Of a stretch of 64,000 nucleotides of DNA, positions 2,295 through 40,422 are shown one piece after another. This DNA is from Ramlibacter henchirensis (lineage in GTDB: Bacteria; Pseudomonadota; Gammaproteobacteria; Burkholderiales; Burkholderiaceae_C), in the NCBI RefSeq assembly GCF_004682015.1, contig NZ_SMLM01000002.1, forward strand, positions 248,001-312,000. Direction: 5' to 3'. The position numbers were made by a program, and so were the translations under genes. Below the pieces are notes generated by a model. It was not told the DNA's origin and ran no database searches. It saw nothing but the letters and a program-made list of their open reading frames with translations. Numbering within the stretch: position 1 is the stretch's first letter; each line of letters begins with the position of its first letter.

Positions 2295-3623
2295 TCAGGC
2301 GCGGCGGCCGGACCTTCGTTCGTACAGCATCATCAGCGGCGTCACGGAAATGCCGTGCAGCAGGATCGACGTCACCACCACGGCCAGGGTGAGCGCGGCG
2401 AGCTGATGCGCCAGGTCCTGCGGCAGCCCGTGGTTGATCGCGTACAGCAGGTAGTAGAGCGAGCCGACGCCGCGGATGCCGAACCAAGCGATCAGCCGCC
2501 GCCGCACCGGCATCGTGCGCGTGCCCACCAGGCCGAGGCCCACCGCGGCCGGCCGGATGACCAGCAGCAGCAGCGGCACGAACCACCAGTGCGCCGCCGC
2601 AAGCTCCCATTGCACGGCCCACAGCAGCGCGCCGATGGTGACCACGACCGCGACTTCGCCGATGCGCTCGAGCTGCTGGTTGAAGCCGAGCACCGCCTGC
2701 GCCATGTATTCCGGCGCGTGCTTCGGGTCGACCGCCATCGTGTCGGCCAGGCTCTTGTCCGCCAGGGCGGTGGCCTGCTCCACCGCGGCACGGCTCTCCT
2801 CCGGCGACGGACTCTGCGACTGCACGAGCTGCCGCAGCGCGACGCCGGCGGCGAACACCGCGAGGAAGCCGTAGGCGTGGACCAGGACGGCCACGCCGTA
2901 GGCCAGCGCGATCAGCCCGAGCGCGAGGAAGTCGTCCAGCCCGACGGCCTCTTCGTGTTCGCGGCGCAGGAACAGCACGAGGCGGCCGACGGCGATGCCC
3001 AGTCCGGCGCCGATGCCCAGGCCCGCGGCCACGGCCCAGAGCAGGTCCACCGACCACCAGCGCCAGGCGCCCTCGCCCAGCTCGTGGAGGCCGAGCAGGC
3101 CCAGCCCCAGCATGACGAACGGAAAGGCCGTCCCGTCATTGAGCCCGCCTTCGCCGGTGAGCGCGAAGCGCAGCTGATCCTGGTCGGTCGGTCGCTGCAC
3201 CTGCACGTCGGATGCGAGCACCGGGTCGGTGGGCGCGATCACCGCGCCGAGCAGGATGGCGGCGCCCGGCGACAGGTCCATCCACGCCCAGCCGACCAGC
3301 GCAATGAGGCCGACCGTGATCACCATCGAGACGGTCGCCAGCCGCAGCGGCAGCAGCCAGCGCCGGTCCTTGAGGCCGTGACCGAGCTTGAGTCCCGCGG
3401 CGAAGAGCGACACGAGCACGACCACTTCGGTCAGGCGCTCGAGCAGGACGGGCTGGCTGAGGGGCGTCACCTGGATCCAGCCCAGCCACCACGGGCTGAC
3501 CGCCACGCCGACGGCCAGGTACATCATGGCGGTCGACAGCGGCAGGCGCGTGAGCACCGTGGCGCTGAGCGCCATGAGGATCAGCAGCAGCCCGATCAGG
3601 ACGGACCAGAGCGCGAACAGCAT
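2295..3623 (-). CDS. CPA1-family sodium (cation)/proton antiporter
   Basis: This 442-residue membrane protein has about 12 predicted transmembrane segments. Diagnostic motifs of the NhaP/CPA1 family are present: APTDPVLASDVQV in the ion-binding helix, with the conserved aspartate, and GEGGLNDGTAFPF in the next one. It would exchange cytoplasmic Na+ or K+ for protons at the inner membrane and support pH and salt tolerance. A hydrophilic stretch at about residues 270-325 (SPSPEESRAAVEQ and following) is an internal cytoplasmic loop rather than a C-terminal tail. The next gene (3660-4028) lies upstream on the same strand. Confidence 0.92.
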   Translation of the reverse strand: MLFALWSVLIGLLLILMALSATVLTRLPLSTAMMYLAVGVAVSPWWLGWIQVTPLSQPVLLERLTEVVVLVSLFAAGLKLGHGLKDRRWLLPLRLATVSMVITVGLIALVGWAWMDLSPGAAILLGAVIAPTDPVLASDVQVQRPTDQDQLRFALTGEGGLNDGTAFPFVMLGLGLLGLHELGEGAWRWWSVDLLWAVAAGLGIGAGLGIAVGRLVLFLRREHEEAVGLDDFLALGLIALAYGVAVLVHAYGFLAVFAAGVALRQLVQSQSPSPEESRAAVEQATALADKSLADTMAVDPKHAPEYMAQAVLGFNQQLERIGEVAVVVTIGALLWAVQWELAAAHWWFVPLLLLVIRPAAVGLGLVGTRTMPVRRRLIAWFGIRGVGSLYYLLYAINHGLPQDLAHQLAALTLAVVVTSILLHGISVTPLMMLYERRSGRRA

Positions 3624-3659
3624 GCGGCGGGATCGGGCGGCCGCCTGTCGCGCGCCGCG

Positions 3660-4028
3660 CTAGCGGCGGCCGGTCACGTCCTTGGCGTCGGGATCGCTGG
3701 GGCCGTTGCGGTCCGAGAGGCCGGGGCCGGGCGACTTGCCCACTTCGCCGGAATCACCGCCCTGCGCGGACCAGGTGCCCTGGGTGCGGGTGGTGTTGCC
3801 GCGCGGGCGCAGTTCGTCGTCGTCGTCGAGGTTCACCGAGCCGCCGCCCATCGGCTTGTCGTCGGCCGCGCCGTGGTCACGCTCGTTGACGCCGCTGGGC
3901 GCGACCAGGTCCGGCTGGCGGTCGCTGGTCACGCCCACCTTGCCGGGACCGTCGCCCGCATAGGGCTTGGTCGTCTGGTCCGCGTCCTTGCGCGCGGTTT
4001 CGTCGGGGGAACGGTTCTGGTCGGGCAT
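3660..4028 (-). CDS. Hydrophilic disordered protein, function unknown
   Basis: The protein has 122 residues, mostly Asp, Gly, Pro, Ser, Lys and Arg, without hydrophobic segments. It begins MPDQNRSPDETARKD and contains an acidic patch (NLDDDDEL). A GCAGGAG ribosome binding site precedes the start. It is placed between an alpha/beta hydrolase gene and the antiporter gene, all leftward, and could be co-transcribed with both. It resembles other tiny disordered proteins in the first 20 kb. No family is recognised. Confidence 0.6.
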   Translation of the reverse strand: MPDQNRSPDETARKDADQTTKPYAGDGPGKVGVTSDRQPDLVAPSGVNERDHGAADDKPMGGGSVNLDDDDELRPRGNTTRTQGTWSAQGGDSGEVGKSPGPGLSDRNGPSDPDAKDVTGRR

Positions 4029-8749: not shown

Positions 8750-9274
8750 TCAGAGCCTGGAGAGGTCGGTGATCGCGTCGACCACCATCGAGGTGCCCAC
8801 TGCGATCAACAGGATGTCGGCCGCGACGCGGACGTACTTGTGGCCGACCGGCGGCGGCGGCAGCTGCACCAGGACCTGGGACGGCACGGGGTAATGGACC
8901 ACCGCGGTCGGCAGCGGCTGGCCCACGTTGTACTTCTTCGCCTGTCCGGGCGGCATGCAGCCGTTGCCCTTCTTGGCCAGCCCGGGCGGACAGCCCTTCC
9001 CGCCACCGTAGCTCTCGCCCCAGGAGACGCGGATCGCCTGGCGGTCGCGGTCGTTGAAGTAACCGCCGACGCGCGCCTCGCGGTGGCCGCCGCCCTTCTT
9101 CTCATGCTTGTGGGCATGCTTGCCGCCGCCGTCGTGGTCCTTGCCACCCCCCTTGTGCTTGTGACTTCCACCGCCGCCCCAGTCGGGCTTTTCTGCCAGG
9201 GCCGGGCTGCCGAGCGCCAGGACCAGGGCTGCCAGCAGCCCCGCGCACCAGGTCTTGTGGTCGATTTGCTTCAT
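8750..9274 (-). CDS. CigR/RcnB-like periplasmic protein
   Basis: The start at 9274 has an excellent ribosome binding site (AGGAGG). The 174-residue protein has a signal peptide ending in PALA, a histidine-, glycine- and lysine-rich region (about residues 28-65) that could bind metal, then the conserved core GKGCPPGLAKKGNGCMPPG, the segment VGQPLP, and a C-terminal VRVAADILLIAVGTSMVVDAI. This order is characteristic of the CigR/RcnB family; CigR is described as an anti-virulence regulator and RcnB as a periplasmic nickel/cobalt homeostasis protein. A 7-bp inverted repeat lies in its upstream region (9313-9332). Confidence 0.75.
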   Translation of the reverse strand: MKQIDHKTWCAGLLAALVLALGSPALAEKPDWGGGGSHKHKGGGKDHDGGGKHAHKHEKKGGGHREARVGGYFNDRDRQAIRVSWGESYGGGKGCPPGLAKKGNGCMPPGQAKKYNVGQPLPTAVVHYPVPSQVLVQLPPPPVGHKYVRVAADILLIAVGTSMVVDAITDLSRL

Positions 9275-9312
9275 TCGCTCCTCCTCGGGAAGACGGGAAC
9301 ACTCCCAAGGCG

Positions 9313-9332
9313 CCACTGTGGCTCAACAGTGG
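9313..9332. promoter_or_regulatory. Inverted repeat, possible operator of the CigR-like gene
   Basis: CCACTGT (9313-9319) and ACAGTGG (9326-9332) form a perfect 7-bp inverted repeat with a 6-base spacer, 39-58 bases upstream of the start at 9274. The binding protein is unknown. Confidence 0.35.
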
Positions 9333-9390
9333 ACAGCCCCGCGTGAAGCAGGCGCGAAAAACGTGAAAAAAAGCAGCGGTTTTGCGGCGA

Positions 9391-10944
9391 TCAGACAGCC
9401 GCCAGGGCCGGCGCGACCGCCGTCTTGCCCAGCCCGAGCCTCTCCGGCGAGATGTACTGCTGCCGGTAGATCTCGAAAGGCATGGAGTCGCGCGCCTCGA
9501 TGTCGCGCTGCTCCTGCAGCGACTGCTGGCTCAGGGCATCGAAGCGCGCCTGCTGCGCACTGCTGAACGGCAGCGACAGCAGCTTGTTGTGCGTCTGCAG
9601 GGAGTGCGCACGGGTGAAGCCGATGAAGGAGTCGGCGTGGTCGCGCGCCATCACCTCCAGCACGCGGGCCGAAGGCAGCAGGGCCGGGTCGGCGAGCATC
9701 GCGCGCGCGGCGCGCAGCGCGTCGGCGTGGTCGCTGGCGCCATGGGCCGCATCCAGCGCCGCCGCGGCCGGCGCGAAGGCGTCCAGCAGTTCCTCGGCCC
9801 ACTCCGTCAGGTGGACTTCGCCGCGGCCGCGTTCGAGCTTCAGGCCCGGCTGGCGGCCGAAGGCCGCGGTGCGGTGCTGGTTGCGGCCGATCTGCGCGAT
9901 CTCCGCCGGCGTGTCCGGCGGGCTGTCGGCCAGCAGGCAGTGCAGCAGGAACACGTCGAGGAATCGCAGCGTGGTCGCCTTGATGCCGACCGGCACGAAA
10001 GGGTCCAGGTCGAGCAGGCGCACCTCGATGTATTCGACGCCGCGCTCGCGCAGCGCATGCAGCGGCCTCTCGCCCGGGAAGATCACGCGCTTCGGGCGGA
10101 TCGGCCCGTAGAACTCGTTCTCGATCTGCAGCAGGCTGGTGGCCAGCTGGTTGTACTCGCCGCCGGGGTTCGTGATGCCCACCGCTTCGTACGCGGGGTA
10201 CGGGCGGGTGAGCGCCTCCTGCAGCGATGCCGCGTAGCCGTCCAGTCCGTTGTAGCTGACCGCCAGGCTGGCCTGCGCGTCGCTCTGGTAGCCCAGGCGG
10301 CCCATGCGAAGCGACGTGCCCCAGGGCATGAACATCGTGCCTTCGCCCAGCGCCTGCAGGTCATGCTGGCGGCCCGCGACGAACGACGAGCAGACCGCCG
10401 GCGAGGCGCCGAACAGGTACAGCAGCAGGAAGGCGTGGCGGCGGAAGTTGCGGATGAGCGCGAAGTACTGGTCGCTGCCCACGCCCGGCATGGACCAGTT
10501 GTAGTGGATGCCCGAGATGGTCTGCATGCGCCGGCCGTAGCGGTGCGCCAGCCCCATGCGGTAGACGCTCTTGGCGCGCCCGACGTTGGACGAGCCGTAG
10601 CGGCCGATCGGAATCGTCTCGTCGGCCGGCAGGTTGCACGGCATGCTGGAGACCCACAGCATCTCGTCGCCGAGCGCGCGCACCACGTACTGGTGGATGC
10701 GCAGCAGTTCCTCCAGGCAGGTCTCGGGCGTGGCATGCACGCCGGTGATCAGCTCGAGCTGCGACTCGCTGTAGTCGGTGGTGATGTGCGGATGCGTGAG
10801 CGCGGAACCCAGCGCGGCCGGATGCGGCGTGAGCGCCAGCGTGCCGGCCCGCGTGGCCCTGAGGCTTTCCTTCTCGATGCCGCGGCGGATGCCCCGCAGC
10901 CGCTCGGCGGCAATCTGGTTGAGGGCGTCTTGCAGTCGGCTCAT
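9391..10944 (-). CDS. gshA: Glutamate-cysteine ligase
   Basis: The protein has 517 residues from the ATG at 10944, close to the 518 of E. coli GshA. It catalyses ATP-dependent joining of glutamate and cysteine, the first step of glutathione synthesis. Conserved features include GIEKESLR near the N-terminus, TTDYSESQLELIT with the metal- and substrate-binding glutamates, the central VYRMGLAHRYGRRMQTISGIHYNWS, and NEFYGPIRPKR. The order matches class I (gamma-proteobacterial type) enzymes. It reads leftward and ends 116 bases before the CigR-like gene starts. A longer frame to 10998 exists, but MSRLQDALNQ is the usual start style. Confidence 0.95.
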   Translation of the reverse strand: MSRLQDALNQIAAERLRGIRRGIEKESLRATRAGTLALTPHPAALGSALTHPHITTDYSESQLELITGVHATPETCLEELLRIHQYVVRALGDEMLWVSSMPCNLPADETIPIGRYGSSNVGRAKSVYRMGLAHRYGRRMQTISGIHYNWSMPGVGSDQYFALIRNFRRHAFLLLYLFGASPAVCSSFVAGRQHDLQALGEGTMFMPWGTSLRMGRLGYQSDAQASLAVSYNGLDGYAASLQEALTRPYPAYEAVGITNPGGEYNQLATSLLQIENEFYGPIRPKRVIFPGERPLHALRERGVEYIEVRLLDLDPFVPVGIKATTLRFLDVFLLHCLLADSPPDTPAEIAQIGRNQHRTAAFGRQPGLKLERGRGEVHLTEWAEELLDAFAPAAAALDAAHGASDHADALRAARAMLADPALLPSARVLEVMARDHADSFIGFTRAHSLQTHNKLLSLPFSSAQQARFDALSQQSLQEQRDIEARDSMPFEIYRQQYISPERLGLGKTAVAPALAAV

Positions 10945-36049: not shown

Positions 36050-37308
36050 CCACGACCCTGCAAGACTGCCGCGCGATGGACCAGAACGATCCGCTGCGCA
36101 AGCTGCGCGATCTTTTCGTTCTGCCGGAAGGGGTCGTGTACCTCGACGGCAACTCGCTTGGTCCTTTGCCGAAGGCGACCGCCGCGCGCGTCGCGGCCGC
36201 CGTGGAACAGGAGTGGGGCCAGGGCCTGATCCGCTCCTGGAACACCGCGGGCTGGTTCGAGATGCCGCGCCGCGTGGGCGATCGCATCGGCGCGTGGATC
36301 GGCGCGCGCGAAGGCGAAGTCGTGGCCACCGACACCACGTCGATCAACCTGTACAAGGTGCTGAGCGCCGCGACTCGCATCGCGTCCGCCGACGCGCCCG
36401 GCCGCAAGGTGGTGCTCAGCGAGCGCAGCAACTTCCCGACCGATCTCTACATCGCGCAGGCCTTGTGCGAGGAGCGCGGCTGGTCGCTGCGGCTCGTTGA
36501 CGCAGGGCAGCTGGAGTCGGAGCTGCGCACCGGCGACGTCGCCGTGCTGATGCTCACGCACGTCAACTACCGCACCGGCTCCATGCACGACATGGCGGGG
36601 CTCACCGCCCTCGCCCACCGTCACGGCACGCTGGCGATCTGGGACCTGGCCCACAGCGCGGGCGCGGTGCCGGTCGACCTGCACGCAGCCGGCGCCGACT
36701 TCGCGATCGGCTGCGGCTACAAGTACCTGAACGGCGGTCCGGGCTCGCCCGCGTTCGCGTGGGTCCATCCACGCCACGCGGACCGCTTCTGGCAACCGCT
36801 GGCCGGCTGGTGGGGCCATGCCGCGCCGTTCGAGTTCACGCCGGAGTACCGGCCCGCGCCCGGCATCGCGCGCTACCTTTGCGGCACGCAGCCGGTGCTG
36901 AGCATGGTGGCGCTCGACTGCGGGCTGGACGCGATCGATGCCGCGCGACCGCTGGGCGGCATGCAGGCGCTGCGGGCCAAGTCGCTCGCGCTCACCGACC
37001 TGTTCATCGCGCTCGTCGAGCAGCGCTGCGACGGCCAAGGCCTTTCGCTCGTCACGCCGAGAGAGCACGGCCGGCGCGGCTCGCAGGTCTGTCTTGCCCG
37101 TGCGGAGGGTGCGTTCGCGATCGTGCAGGCGCTCATCGCGCGCGGCGTGATCGGGGACTTCCGCGCGCCCGACATCCTGCGTTTCGGCTTCACGCCGCTG
37201 TACCTCGAATATGAAGACGTATGGAAAGCCGTGGAGCAATTGCGCCAAGTCCTCGAGACGGGCGAGTGGCGCCGGCCCGAGTTCAACCGCCAGCAGGCCG
37301 TGACATGA
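36046..37308 (+). CDS. kynU: Kynureninase
   Basis: The 420-residue PLP enzyme cleaves kynurenine to anthranilate and alanine. It has [14 protein letters not shown] at the front, the substrate loop [14 protein letters not shown], the aspartate-containing [16 protein letters not shown] and the Schiff-base lysine in [20 protein letters not shown] overlaps exist with both kynB and kynA. Anthranilate could enter tryptophan resynthesis or the benzoate-type catabolic routes. Confidence 0.96.
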
Positions 37309-38153
37309 GCGAGCACCGCAAACCCGAGGACATCGTGCACGCGGAAGGCGCGCAGCTGGATTTCAGCCGTGCGATGAGCTACGGCGACTACCTGCAGCTG
37401 GACCGCATCCTCACCGCGCAGAAGCCGCTCTCGCCCGACCACAACGAGATGCTGTTCATCATCCAGCACCAGACCAGCGAGCTGTGGATGAAGCTGATGC
37501 TGCACGAGCTGCGCGCGGCCATCGAGTGCGTCTCGCGCGACCAGCTGGGGAGCGCGTTCAAGATGCTGGCGCGGGTGTCGCGCATCATGGAGCAGCTGGT
37601 CCACGCCTGGGACGTGCTGGCGACGATGACGCCGCCGGAATACAGCGCGATCCGGCCCTACCTGGCCAGCTCCAGCGGCTTCCAGAGCGCGCAGTACCGC
37701 TGCATCGAGTTCGCGCTGGGCAACAAGAACGCGGCGATGCTCAAGCCGCATGAGCACCGGCCCGACCTGCTGGCGCAAGTGCGCGCCGCCTACGAGGCGC
37801 CTTCGCTGTACGACGAGTCGCTGCGCCTGCTGGCGCGCCGCGGCCTCCCGATGCCCGCCGAATACATCGAGCGGGACTGGACGCAGCCCTACGTCGAGAG
37901 CGCGCAGGTCGAGCAGGCCTGGCTGGTGGTCTACCGCGACCCCGAGCGCCACTGGGACCTTTACCAGCTGGGCGAGGAGCTCACCGACCTGGAGGACGCC
38001 TTCCGCCTCTGGCGCTTCCGGCACGTGACCACCGTGGAGCGCGTCATCGGCTTCAAGCGCGGGACAGGCGGCACCGGCGGCGTGTCCTACCTGCGCAAGA
38101 TGCTGGACGTGGTGCTGTTCCCGGAAATCTGGAAGCTGCGCACCGACTTGTGA
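37305..38153 (+). CDS. kynA: Tryptophan 2,3-dioxygenase
   Basis: The 282-residue heme enzyme opens the indole ring of tryptophan. It shows the family pattern [43 protein letters not shown] with conserved substrate and heme residues, and [21 protein letters not shown] near the end. It is the third gene of the kyn operon, although it catalyses the first step. Its stop overlaps a possible GTG start of the next gene. Confidence 0.96.
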
Positions 38154-38177
38154 GTTCGCGCTTCGAAACTTTACAAT
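38148..38177 (+). promoter_or_regulatory. Sigma-70-like promoter of the HTH-GHKL-STAS gene
   Basis: TTGTGA (38148-38153) and TACAAT (38172-38177) are spaced by 18 bases at the very end of kynA. A transcript would begin near 38184, about 17 bases before the ATG at 38201. Confidence 0.5.
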
Positions 38178-38198
38178 CGAGCGAGATTGTCAAGTTTC
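38165..38198. promoter_or_regulatory. Long inverted repeat over the -10 region, candidate autoregulatory operator
   Basis: GAAACTT-T-ACAATC (38165-38178) and GATTGT-C-AAGTTTC (38185-38198) form 14-base arms with one mismatch and a 6-base centre. The repeat covers the TACAAT box and ends 2 bases before the ATG at 38201. Confidence 0.55.
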
Positions 38199-38200
38199 CG

Positions 38201-39256
38201 ATGCCGCGTCCCTCCCGCCTCCCCAGAGAAGTCGTCGCCCAGTGGACGACGGAGCACGTGTCGTCGAACCCGGACGACCTCACTGCGGCATTGGCACGCC
38301 GGTTCGGGGTCACCCGCGCTGCAGCGGCAGGAGCGGTGAAGCAGCTCGAGGCCCACGGCTACGTCCTGCGTACCAAGGGAGGCACACGCCCGAGCTTCAC
38401 GGCGGGCCCCGCCCGCTGGATCAGCCGCCGCTACACGCTTCCACAAGCGGACGAGCAACTGCTCTGGGAGCGCGATTTCCTTCCGTGGATGTCCGCGGCG
38501 CCCAACATCCTGAACATCCTGCACCACGGGTTCACCGAAATCGTCAACAACGCCAACGACCATTCCGGCGGCCATGAGCTCCAGATCGACTTCCAGGCCA
38601 GCGCCGAGTTCATCTTTCTCGGGATCATGGACGACGGTGTCGGCATCTTCCGCAAGATCGCCGATACCCTGCGGCTGCCTGATCCCCGGTTTTCCCTGCT
38701 GGAACTCTCGAAGGGAAAGTTCACCTCGGACGCACGCCAGCACTCGGGGGAAGGCATCTTCTTCACCTCGAGGATGTTCGATGCCTTCTTTCTCGAGGCG
38801 AACCAGCTGGGCTATCGCAAGTTCAATGTCGGCGACCAGGAAGGGCGGCTCGAATCGCAGGATCTCACCTTGCGCGACCATGATGGCCAGCCGCTCGGCA
38901 CCGGCGTCATGATGTTCATCGACGCGGACAGCACGCGCACGACCCGCTCCGTCTTCGAGCGCTTCACGCCGGACGCGCCGGACGACTTGTCGTTTGCCAG
39001 GACCGTGGTGCCCGTCAAGCTCGCCAGCCTGGGCAACGGGAACCTGCTTTCGCGCTCGCAGGCGAAGCGCCTCGTGAATCGCATCGACCAGTTCAAGGTC
39101 GTGGAGCTGGACTTCTCGGGCGTCGACGAAATCGGCCAGGCGTTCGCAGACGAAATCTTCCGTGTGTTCGCGCGAGCCCACACCGAGGTGCAGCTGGTCC
39201 CGAAGAACACCTCCAGCTACGTGGACGGCATGATCCGCCGCGTTCGCGCAGCCTAG
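38201..39256 (+). CDS. HTH - GHKL ATPase - STAS-like (DUF4325) fusion protein
   Basis: The ATG at 38201 gives 351 residues; a GTG at 38150 overlapping the kynA stop would add 17. Residues about 5-75 look like a winged helix (DLTAALARRFGVTRAAAAGAVKQLEAHGYV). Residues about 100-240 form a Bergerat ATPase fold: N-box EIVNNANDHSGG (113-124), G1 box DDGVGI (144-149) and G2-like HSGEGIFFTSRMFD (181-194). Residues about 282-345 are the STAS-like DUF4325 domain (VVELDFSGVDEIGQAFADEIF). By analogy to SpoIIAB/SpoIIAA pairs it could be a one-chain partner switch that also binds DNA. That is inference; no function is known to me. Confidence 0.8.
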   Translation: MPRPSRLPREVVAQWTTEHVSSNPDDLTAALARRFGVTRAAAAGAVKQLEAHGYVLRTKGGTRPSFTAGPARWISRRYTLPQADEQLLWERDFLPWMSAAPNILNILHHGFTEIVNNANDHSGGHELQIDFQASAEFIFLGIMDDGVGIFRKIADTLRLPDPRFSLLELSKGKFTSDARQHSGEGIFFTSRMFDAFFLEANQLGYRKFNVGDQEGRLESQDLTLRDHDGQPLGTGVMMFIDADSTRTTRSVFERFTPDAPDDLSFARTVVPVKLASLGNGNLLSRSQAKRLVNRIDQFKVVELDFSGVDEIGQAFADEIFRVFARAHTEVQLVPKNTSSYVDGMIRRVRAA

Positions 39257-40422
39257 GCGCCGTACAGCCAGGGCAGGTCCAGCAGCCGCTCGCCCCCGAT
39301 CCGCATCGACAGGTTCCGCGCCAAGCGCAGCGCGCCATCGGCATGGAAGATCCAGCCATTGCGTCGCGAGCGCGCCTGCACCCGGGCGCAGCGCTGCCAG
39401 CGGTCCAGCGCGAATCGGCGCAGGGAGGTCGGCACGTCGAGCACCCGGTCGCTGCAGGCGGCCAGCACCTTTTGCAGCGCCAGCGCGTCCTCCAGCGCCA
39501 TGCCGGCCCCCTGCGCGAGATAAGGTCGCATGGGATGCGCGGCATCGCCCAGCAGGACGGCGCGGCCTAGGGCCATTGCGTTCTCGCTGCGCAGCGGGGG
39601 GCGGTCGTGGACCGGCCATAGGCGCCAGTGATCCACGGTTTCGACCAGCGCCTGTAGTTCTCGGCAAGACGCTCGCGCGACCGCACGCAGTTCGCCGTCG
39701 CCCGCGTCCTGGTCCCACGCCGCTTCGGCGCGGCCTTCGATGAAGGCGACGATGTTCAGCGCCTCGCCGCCGCGGACGGGGTAGCGCACCAGGTGCATGC
39801 GCGGCCCGAGCCAGGCCTGGACTTCCTGCTGGCGCAAGGAAGCAGGCAGCTGCGCCATCGGCAGCAAAGCGCGGTAGGCGACGTGCCCGCTGGCCGGCGC
39901 TGGGCCATCGCCAAGCAGCTGGGTTCTCAGCGCACTCCACACGCCGTCGGCCACCGCGAGCGCGTCGGCTTCCACCATCGTGCCGCCCACCAGGTCCGCC
40001 TGCGCCGTTTCGCCATCGACCCGCGCGCCCGCGATGGCGTGGCCGGCGTGCAGGTGCGCGCCGGCTTGCGCGGCCGCATCCAGCAGCACCGTGTGCAGGT
40101 CGGCGCGGTGCAGGGTCAGGTAAGGCGCCGCGTAGCGCTCTCGTGCCGTGGCGCCCAGGCGCAGGACGCCGAGCTCGCGTCCGTCGACCGCGTCACGCAC
40201 CGAGAGGCGCGGCGGCTCATAGGGCCGCAGCGCGGGATGATCCAGCAGGTTCCACTCGCGCAGGATGCGCGTTGCGTTCGGCCCGAGTTGCAGCCCGGCC
40301 CCCGCTTCCGCGAAAGCCGCGGCCTTCTCGAACACGCGGACCTCCCAGCCCGCCGCACGCGCGCCCACCGCGGCCGCGAGCCCCGCGATGCCGCCTCCCG
40401 CGACGAGGATGTCGTGTGCCAT
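39253..40422 (-). CDS. FAD-dependent aromatic monooxygenase (salicylate hydroxylase-like)
   Basis: The 389-residue flavoprotein belongs to the PHBH-type group A monooxygenases. The dinucleotide motif GGGIAGLAAAVGA is at the N-terminus, the DG motif is in AVADGVWSALR, and the second FAD motif is RAVLLGDAAHPMRPYLAQGAGMALED. It would hydroxylate an aromatic acid with NAD(P)H and O2. The proximity to kyn genes could suggest a kynurenine or anthranilate derivative, but salicylate- or hydroxybenzoate-type substrates are just as possible. Its TAG overlaps the TAG of the convergent fusion-protein gene (CTAG). Confidence 0.85.
   Translation of the reverse strand: MAHDILVAGGGIAGLAAAVGARAAGWEVRVFEKAAAFAEAGAGLQLGPNATRILREWNLLDHPALRPYEPPRLSVRDAVDGRELGVLRLGATARERYAAPYLTLHRADLHTVLLDAAAQAGAHLHAGHAIAGARVDGETAQADLVGGTMVEADALAVADGVWSALRTQLLGDGPAPASGHVAYRALLPMAQLPASLRQQEVQAWLGPRMHLVRYPVRGGEALNIVAFIEGRAEAAWDQDAGDGELRAVARASCRELQALVETVDHWRLWPVHDRPPLRSENAMALGRAVLLGDAAHPMRPYLAQGAGMALEDALALQKVLAACSDRVLDVPTSLRRFALDRWQRCARVQARSRRNGWIFHADGALRLARNLSMRIGGERLLDLPWLYGA

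Follow-up and report, generated by a model that had tools for sequence, protein, structure and literature searches.

A widespread family of single-chain winged-helix, GHKL and DUF4325 proteins that lack the canonical acceptor and have a candidate operator upstream of their own gene

Partner switching normally relies on a GHKL kinase that phosphorylates a STAS partner. In the stretch of Ramlibacter henchirensis DNA analysed here (the window, 64,000 nucleotides), a gene beside kynA encodes a DNA-binding winged helix (wHTH), a GHKL ATPase domain and a STAS-like DUF4325 domain in one protein, raising the question of whether such a chain could act as a switch by itself and, if so, upon what. Our results are best read as pointing to an ATP switch that is mobile, has no partner and represses its own gene, a variation on the CapKS and VapKSC systems that would operate without canonical phosphorylation.

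Three domains on one chain, in a large and patchily distributed family

A preliminary description of the locus had placed the wHTH, GHKL and DUF4325 parts on one chain in that order, and this is confirmed by the predicted fold, by the motifs (Table 1) and by the profile search it had proposed as a check, in which Pfam PF14213 (DUF4325) scored 60.6 bits on the whole protein against a curated cut-off of 23. Its frame for the gene began at GTG 38150, as opposed to the probable ATG at 38201. The MarR_2-type winged helix scores 26.3 bits against a curated Pfam cut-off of 27, and its model follows the order helix-helix-helix-hairpin; further, Arg39 and the wing residues Thr62 and Pro64, the latter two just past residues 9-60, are invariant across 46 aligned homologs. 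Structure prediction, likewise proposed earlier, yielded a GHKL ATPase fold of the SpoIIAB branch, and the GHKL site, described at the outset as intact, does appear so, the N-box, G1 and lid motifs of that branch all being present. Beyond Pfam, PADLOC held no family for the window protein, PHROGs returned phrog_3364, of unknown function (E 5e-7, residues 91-183; other rows weaker), and Foldseek with the DUF4325-domain model gave no match at E 0.001 or better.

Table 1. Coordinates of the switch gene, its domains and motifs, its upstream elements and its neighbours within the window
Feature	Position	Strand	Remarks
kynA (tryptophan 2,3-dioxygenase)	37221..38153	+	left neighbour
Sigma-70-like promoter match, TTGTGA, 18, TACAAT	38148..38177	+	consensus match only
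Inverted repeat GAAACTTTACAAT...ATTGTCAAGTTTC	38165..38198	.	candidate autoregulatory operator
Operator half-site ACTTTACAAT	38168..38177	+	candidate
Operator half-site ACTTGACAAT	38186..38195	-	candidate
One-chain wHTH-GHKL-DUF4325 protein	38201..39256	+	351 aa; ATG 38201 the probable start
Winged helix, MarR-like	38225..38380	+	residues 9-60
GHKL domain, SpoIIAB-like	38408..38935	+	residues 70-245
N-box EIVNNANDHS	38537..38566	+	residues 113-122
G1 box DDGVGI	38630..38647	+	residues 144-149
Lid motif HSGEGIFFTS	38741..38770	+	residues 181-190
DUF4325 STAS-like domain	38972..39253	+	residues 258-351, boundaries as cut for folding
LSRSQAKR motif	39047..39070	+	residues 283-290; possible alternative acceptors
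IGQAFADE	39131..39154	+	residues 311-318; Gln313-Ala314 at the place of the relatives' acceptor Ser/Thr
FAD-binding monooxygenase-like gene	39253..40422	-	right neighbour, convergent; stop codons of both genes overlap

The same description had taken the fusion to be singular. A phmmer search rules out a unique fusion, as 7,942 of 7,999 scored database proteins pass E 0.001 against the window protein; since DUF4325 is also present in all 120 matches listed (292-380 aa), the wHTH-GHKL-DUF4325 arrangement is common. This large family was already visible in Pfam rows and in source names, its members being called, for example, STAS-like domain-containing protein in the databases. Its distribution is patchy: within a sample of relatives, 5 of 61 genomes (the window's own included) had a match covering most of the protein and 7 of 61 any match at all, while a class-level sample gave whole or partial matches in 30 of 274 genomes. 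By tblastn, the family had no match in 50,697 phage and 72,556 plasmid records; a control search with kynA, covering the plasmid set only, matched 129 plasmid records. The word DUF4325 does occur in published papers in an open-licence full-text listing, and within that open-licence literature, which leaves subscription journals and preprints outside its scope, we found no description of a wHTH-GHKL-DUF4325 single chain. The part of PMC13373217 available to us treats two- and three-gene systems and makes no mention of such a chain.

Genomic setting and candidate operator

The closest relative with kynA (locus L135) carries both the kynA and the FAD gene, each about 87% identical to those of the window, and there the two converge with hardly any space between them (kynA ends at 2418, the 388th codon of the FAD gene lies at 2435). 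Relative to this arrangement, the window has ~1.1 kb extra between the two genes, comprising the candidate operator and the switch gene only, and in all 24 of the further kynA loci fetched the switch gene is missing from this site. The gene has a G+C content of 64.4% against 69.2% for the window, and homologs fall below their flanks in 66 of the 77 loci tested. No neighbouring family recurs in more than seven loci (crude ORF calls, at least 80 aa), the most recurrent, in seven, being ABC ATPases at varied positions, and a same-strand gene lies within 60 bases downstream in 11 of 79. The best reading of these comparisons is that the switch gene is a mobile single gene, probably inserted at the kynA site together with its own operator. 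Two loci hold additional copies: in L010, at about 9130-9394, a second, decayed switch gene lies downstream of the intact one and has a tandem operator to itself, and in L108 an extra copy of the C-terminal DUF4325 part (3430-3675) lies downstream of the full-length gene.

The upstream repeats were compared across 84 loci, namely the window itself (L001), L003-L005 and L009-L088, with L002 dropped for a match on the minus strand of its locus and L006-L008 for having no match at 1e-10; some of the 84 are near-duplicates, so counts over them are not independent. An octamer, TT[GT]ACAAT, was first seen among palindromes upstream of homologs and occurs exactly in 56 of the 84 upstream stretches (120 bases each). 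When these sites were turned into a weight matrix, the dominant spacing between neighbouring same-strand sites was 22 bases (40 cases) or 21 bases (29 cases). Such a 21-22 bp pair was present in 48 of 84 loci versus none of 616 control regions, taken upstream of the other ORFs of these loci, and at least one site occurred in 69 of 84 versus 41 of the 616 (control regions from crude ORF calls). As the matrix had been trained on these very loci, two further tests were run. Among 16 new loci (19 full-length relatives found, less three identical to training loci), seven had the 21-22 bp pair and nine any site, the seven without one being mostly more distant relatives. In a test free of any motif, the top-scoring direct repeat in the 100 upstream bases, whatever its letters (spacings 10-40), had a spacing of 21-22 and a score of at least 8 for 59 of 84 loci versus 3 of 623 controls.

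The window is one of the 25 loci without such a direct repeat at score 8. Its pair is inverted rather than direct, so its operator is inferred from the half-sites that it shares with the repeats of its relatives, and on this comparative support the earlier proposal that the repeat at 38165-38198 is a DNA target becomes probable. The inverted pair occurs once in its own genome, with nothing else within three mismatches, and a weak match (6 of 10 bases) lies 22 bases before the left half-site. A layout close to that of the window is found in L031, L071, L084 and L087, where a near-perfect palindrome, its letters unrelated to TTKACAAT, has a direct copy 22 bp upstream, such that an inverted copy stands beside a second direct copy.

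Could the repeats be nothing other than sigma-70 promoter elements, a TTGACA -35 and a TACAAT -10 set 17-18 bp apart, with no operator at all? The 21-22 bp spacing of the octamers does set the TTGACA of copy one and the TACAAT of copy two at the -35/-10 distance, so that a promoter may be embedded in the repeats, and the promoter match of the window itself uses TACAAT. Against this stand three same-strand copies in 18 of 84 loci, the complete absence of the pair from the 616 other upstream regions, and the agreement of the varying base of the octamer, which is identical in both copies in 41 of 46 loci (23 G-G, 18 T-T, 4 G-T and 1 T-G; Fisher 5e-8, with relatedness not corrected). Moreover, where the octamer is missing, the geometry is often preserved in other letters (L030, L031, L056, L065, L071, L084 and L087), and in other subfamilies the 21-22 bp spacing is held by unrelated sequences, specifically TATGTTGTCGA in L056, GGTTTATATTT in L065 and CCTTTAAGAAAA in L071. 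Given the third copies, the agreeing variable base and the change of letters at constant spacing, we regard promoter elements alone as a highly improbable account, and comparison strongly supports repeats that are read by a protein and form a candidate operator of the gene that they precede. An activator, bound upstream of the promoter in a nucleotide-dependent form and raising the expression of its own gene, would suit the loci in which copies lie 60-100 bases upstream of the start; most copies, however, are no more than about 60 bases from the start codon, and the site of the window overlaps the sole predicted promoter match in 38000-38300, the second hexamer of which falls inside the left half-site, leaving activation a slim prospect.

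By strict patterns, the switch gene is the only target of the candidate operator. In a set of 26 genomes of 1.1-9.1 Mb, we counted 25 occurrences of the exact direct pair, spread over 21 genomes, versus three of a reversed control pattern; 21 of the 25 are the gene's own, their letters consistent with the octamer comparison, two are third copies and one belongs to the decayed copy of L010. The one remaining pair, at G344:C246:4889-4917, could be assigned to no copy of the gene. When wHTH residues were compared between G-form and T-form operators, no residue stood out clearly as setting specificity, and the signal followed relatedness.

The missing acceptor and the proposed switch

That the chain might phosphorylate its own STAS-like domain, as first proposed, is now doubtful. 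Among 398 genomes of the phylum we found 31 DUF4325 matches, seven in one-chain wHTH proteins and 24 in others, and Ser or Thr occupies one or both of the two acceptor positions in 24 of the 24 others and in none of the seven, which read Gln-Ala in the window, L161, L163, L164 and L183, Pro-Gly in L181 and His-Gly in L185. In a profile comparison, DUF4325 of the window type (A2) matched that of the split class (A3) with a probability of 95.6 and E 1.1e-8, aligning IGQAFADE with VTQSFIDE. The second acceptor position is Ala in 123, Gly in four and Ser in two members of a 129-sequence set (83 of the 84 loci plus the 46 rows of alignment A1, overlapping in part). We have set aside canonical self-phosphorylation as the main reading, and by these comparisons it is unlikely in the window protein. 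On our reading, 13 of these 24 DUF4325 matches have a GHKL-type gene next to them and five are fused to one, and none was seen in the crude ORF list for the remaining six (L159, L168, L169, L177, L178 and L179). Single chains of STAS-GHKL-DUF4325 architecture, about 400-425 aa long, occur in L182 (1741-3021), L184 (366-1565), L186, L187 and L188 (745-2016) and keep the acceptor Ser; loss of the acceptor thus goes with the wHTH architecture and not with fusion as such, and phosphorylation in cis is more plausible for these chains.

The switch that we propose would work in three steps. In the first, for which comparative support is strong, the winged helix would bind half-sites directly upstream of its own start, mostly tandem direct repeats 21-22 bp apart in relatives and an inverted pair overlapping the predicted promoter in the window, and because of this overlap it would presumably repress its own gene. 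In the second, the STAS-like domain, which cannot be phosphorylated at the canonical site when that site is Gln-Ala, would dock with the GHKL domain or pair with another copy, serving as a pseudo-substrate or a permanent dimer arm much as an acceptor-to-alanine mutant of CapS or SpoIIAA might. The available part of PMC13373217 reports that the CapS acceptor sits in the dimer interface and that phosphorylation breaks the dimer; by analogy, the Gln-Ala domain may be a pairing arm that is permanently unphosphorylated. In the third, ATP binding or turnover, or a ligand such as ssDNA, would shift the GHKL-STAS arrangement and loosen the grip on DNA, such that expression of the gene would rise. DNA damage or ssDNA as the signal is suggested only by analogy with CapK, which the same source reports to be activated by ssDNA. 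Comparison across relatives brings out the candidate upstream operator, the lack of an acceptor, the conserved GHKL motifs and the solo gene; that the switch is driven by nucleotide rather than by phosphorylation is what we infer. As a counterpoint, the catalytic-type Glu of the N-box is retained in 107 of the 109 sequences in which the pattern was found (out of the 129), and this fits a working kinase better than a purely conformational switch.

Two further readings would keep the kinase at work. The GHKL domain could phosphorylate its own STAS-like domain at a non-canonical residue, Ser284 or Ser286 of LSRSQAKR, and so control DNA binding, in line with the intact GHKL motifs and with the invariance of both Ser in the 46 A1 sequences and the recurrence of the strict pattern SR[ST]QAK in 109 of 129. 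The canonical site is Gln-Ala, however, LSRSQAKR lies N-terminal to the acceptor loop and is not known to have a precedent as an acceptor, which together make this reading unlikely. Alternatively, an unlinked STAS protein could be phosphorylated in trans, as CapK does CapS, with the wHTH only setting the level of the protein; the conserved N-box Glu favours this, as does the report, in the part of PMC13373217 seen, that deletion of the N-terminal HTH of CapK had no effect in a reporter. Yet the genome of the window encodes a single DUF4325 protein, and, of its three STAS matches, two look like SulP-type transporters and the third like an MlaB-type protein next to an ABC ATPase, such that DUF4325 and STAS profiles reveal no obvious STAS partner; together with the want of a conserved neighbour in the crude ORF calls (at least 80 aa), this renders a kinase acting in trans decidedly improbable.

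Returning to the nucleotide-driven autorepressor, we consider the proposal as a whole, an autoregulator complete in itself that passes from genome to genome as one gene together with its operator, to be about evenly poised between right and wrong. More tentatively, and with doubt outweighing confidence, it may be a widespread one-gene element of a new kind in which a GHKL-STAS switch without canonical phosphotransfer lets a wHTH control its own gene, the operator travelling along and the only strict target being the element itself; it might then be a one-gene response to stress or phage, with the protein as its own output. The firmer and more specific result is a widespread wHTH-GHKL-DUF4325 family, undescribed in the open-licence literature, that appears to target itself, to be related to CapKS and VapKSC, and to lack the acceptor. 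If the proposal is true, a GHKL-STAS switch run without an acceptor, over several phyla and with one operator geometry, would represent a second way of running such a switch, and the family would offer a one-protein system in which to study partner switching.

Relation to CapKS, VapKSC and other partner-switching systems

The link to VapKSC goes via the split class. VapS (PDB 9Z7O) is, by sequence, a DUF4325-type protein, matched at E 2.6e-12 with split-class DUF4325 proteins as queries and at 3.6e-19 with their profile. The A2 profile searched against the PDB did not find VapS, returning only two designed helical proteins (E 0.49 and 1.3), and for this reason the link passes through the split-class proteins and the comparison of A2 with A3. 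On the kinase side, Pfam gave no family for the split kinases of L162 and L170; among PDB entries, a profile built from nine STAS-GHKL proteins found CheA and histidine kinases, SpoIIAB and STAS chains, and it matched the window family with a probability of 98.0. In the part of PMC13373217 on which we draw, VapKSC comprises three genes, with VapK a STAS-GHKL kinase and a PIN toxin as output, and Ser48 of VapS is the proposed VapK target on the basis of S48E and S48A mutants and an AlphaFold model, the activity of VapK not being directly testable; to place Ser48 we took the deposited chain to carry a tag of 18 residues.

A gene for a protein of 140-219 aa lies beside the DUF4325 gene (Ser acceptor) in L162 (1724-2188) and L165 (1750-2193), and similar downstream ORFs stand beside Ser-acceptor DUF4325 genes in L168, L173, L174, L175, L176 and L178; a STAS-GHKL gene is also present in L162, L165, L173, L174, L175 and L176. 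These proteins occupy the place of the PIN toxin of VapKSC, and several have a hydrophobic N-terminus by eye. Two were searched, with no Pfam match for either and one weak PADLOC match, to PDC-S05 (E 0.003), for that of L162.

Set beside these systems, the window protein recombines familiar parts. The SpoIIAB/SpoIIAA and RsbW/RsbV pairs are separate chains with a Ser acceptor and a sigma factor as output, whereas the window protein carries a wHTH and no acceptor. According to the portion of PMC13373217 seen, CapK is an HTH-STAS-GHKL protein and CapS a STAS-wHTH protein whose acceptor Ser is conserved; the capS gene lies directly after capK, and an immune operon comes next in 348 of 443 cases. 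Both CapKS and the window protein have HTH, GHKL and STAS parts and bind or would bind DNA, CapS as an autoregulating repressor and the window protein by presumed autorepression. The former, however, is two chains with an acceptor Ser, while the latter is one chain, in the order wHTH-GHKL-STAS instead of that of CapK, with Gln313-Ala314 in the loop where VapS and CapS types have Ser or Thr, and with no operon, the next gene being the convergent FAD monooxygenase-like gene and not one of capS type. With VapKSC, as far as that source describes it, the window protein shares a GHKL domain and a DUF4325-type domain, and it differs in having neither the N-terminal STAS of the kinase, nor the acceptor, nor the toxin; genes for a separate STAS protein and a PIN toxin do not adjoin it in the window. 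The STAS-GHKL-DUF4325 single chains have the same order of GHKL and DUF4325, but with an N-terminal STAS and an acceptor Ser where the window protein has a wHTH and no acceptor. These comparisons set DUF4325, whose name marks it as a domain of unknown function, alongside the CapKS and VapKSC systems, themselves recently reported, and the presence or absence of the acceptor offers a testable sequence rule for which of its members are phosphorylated.
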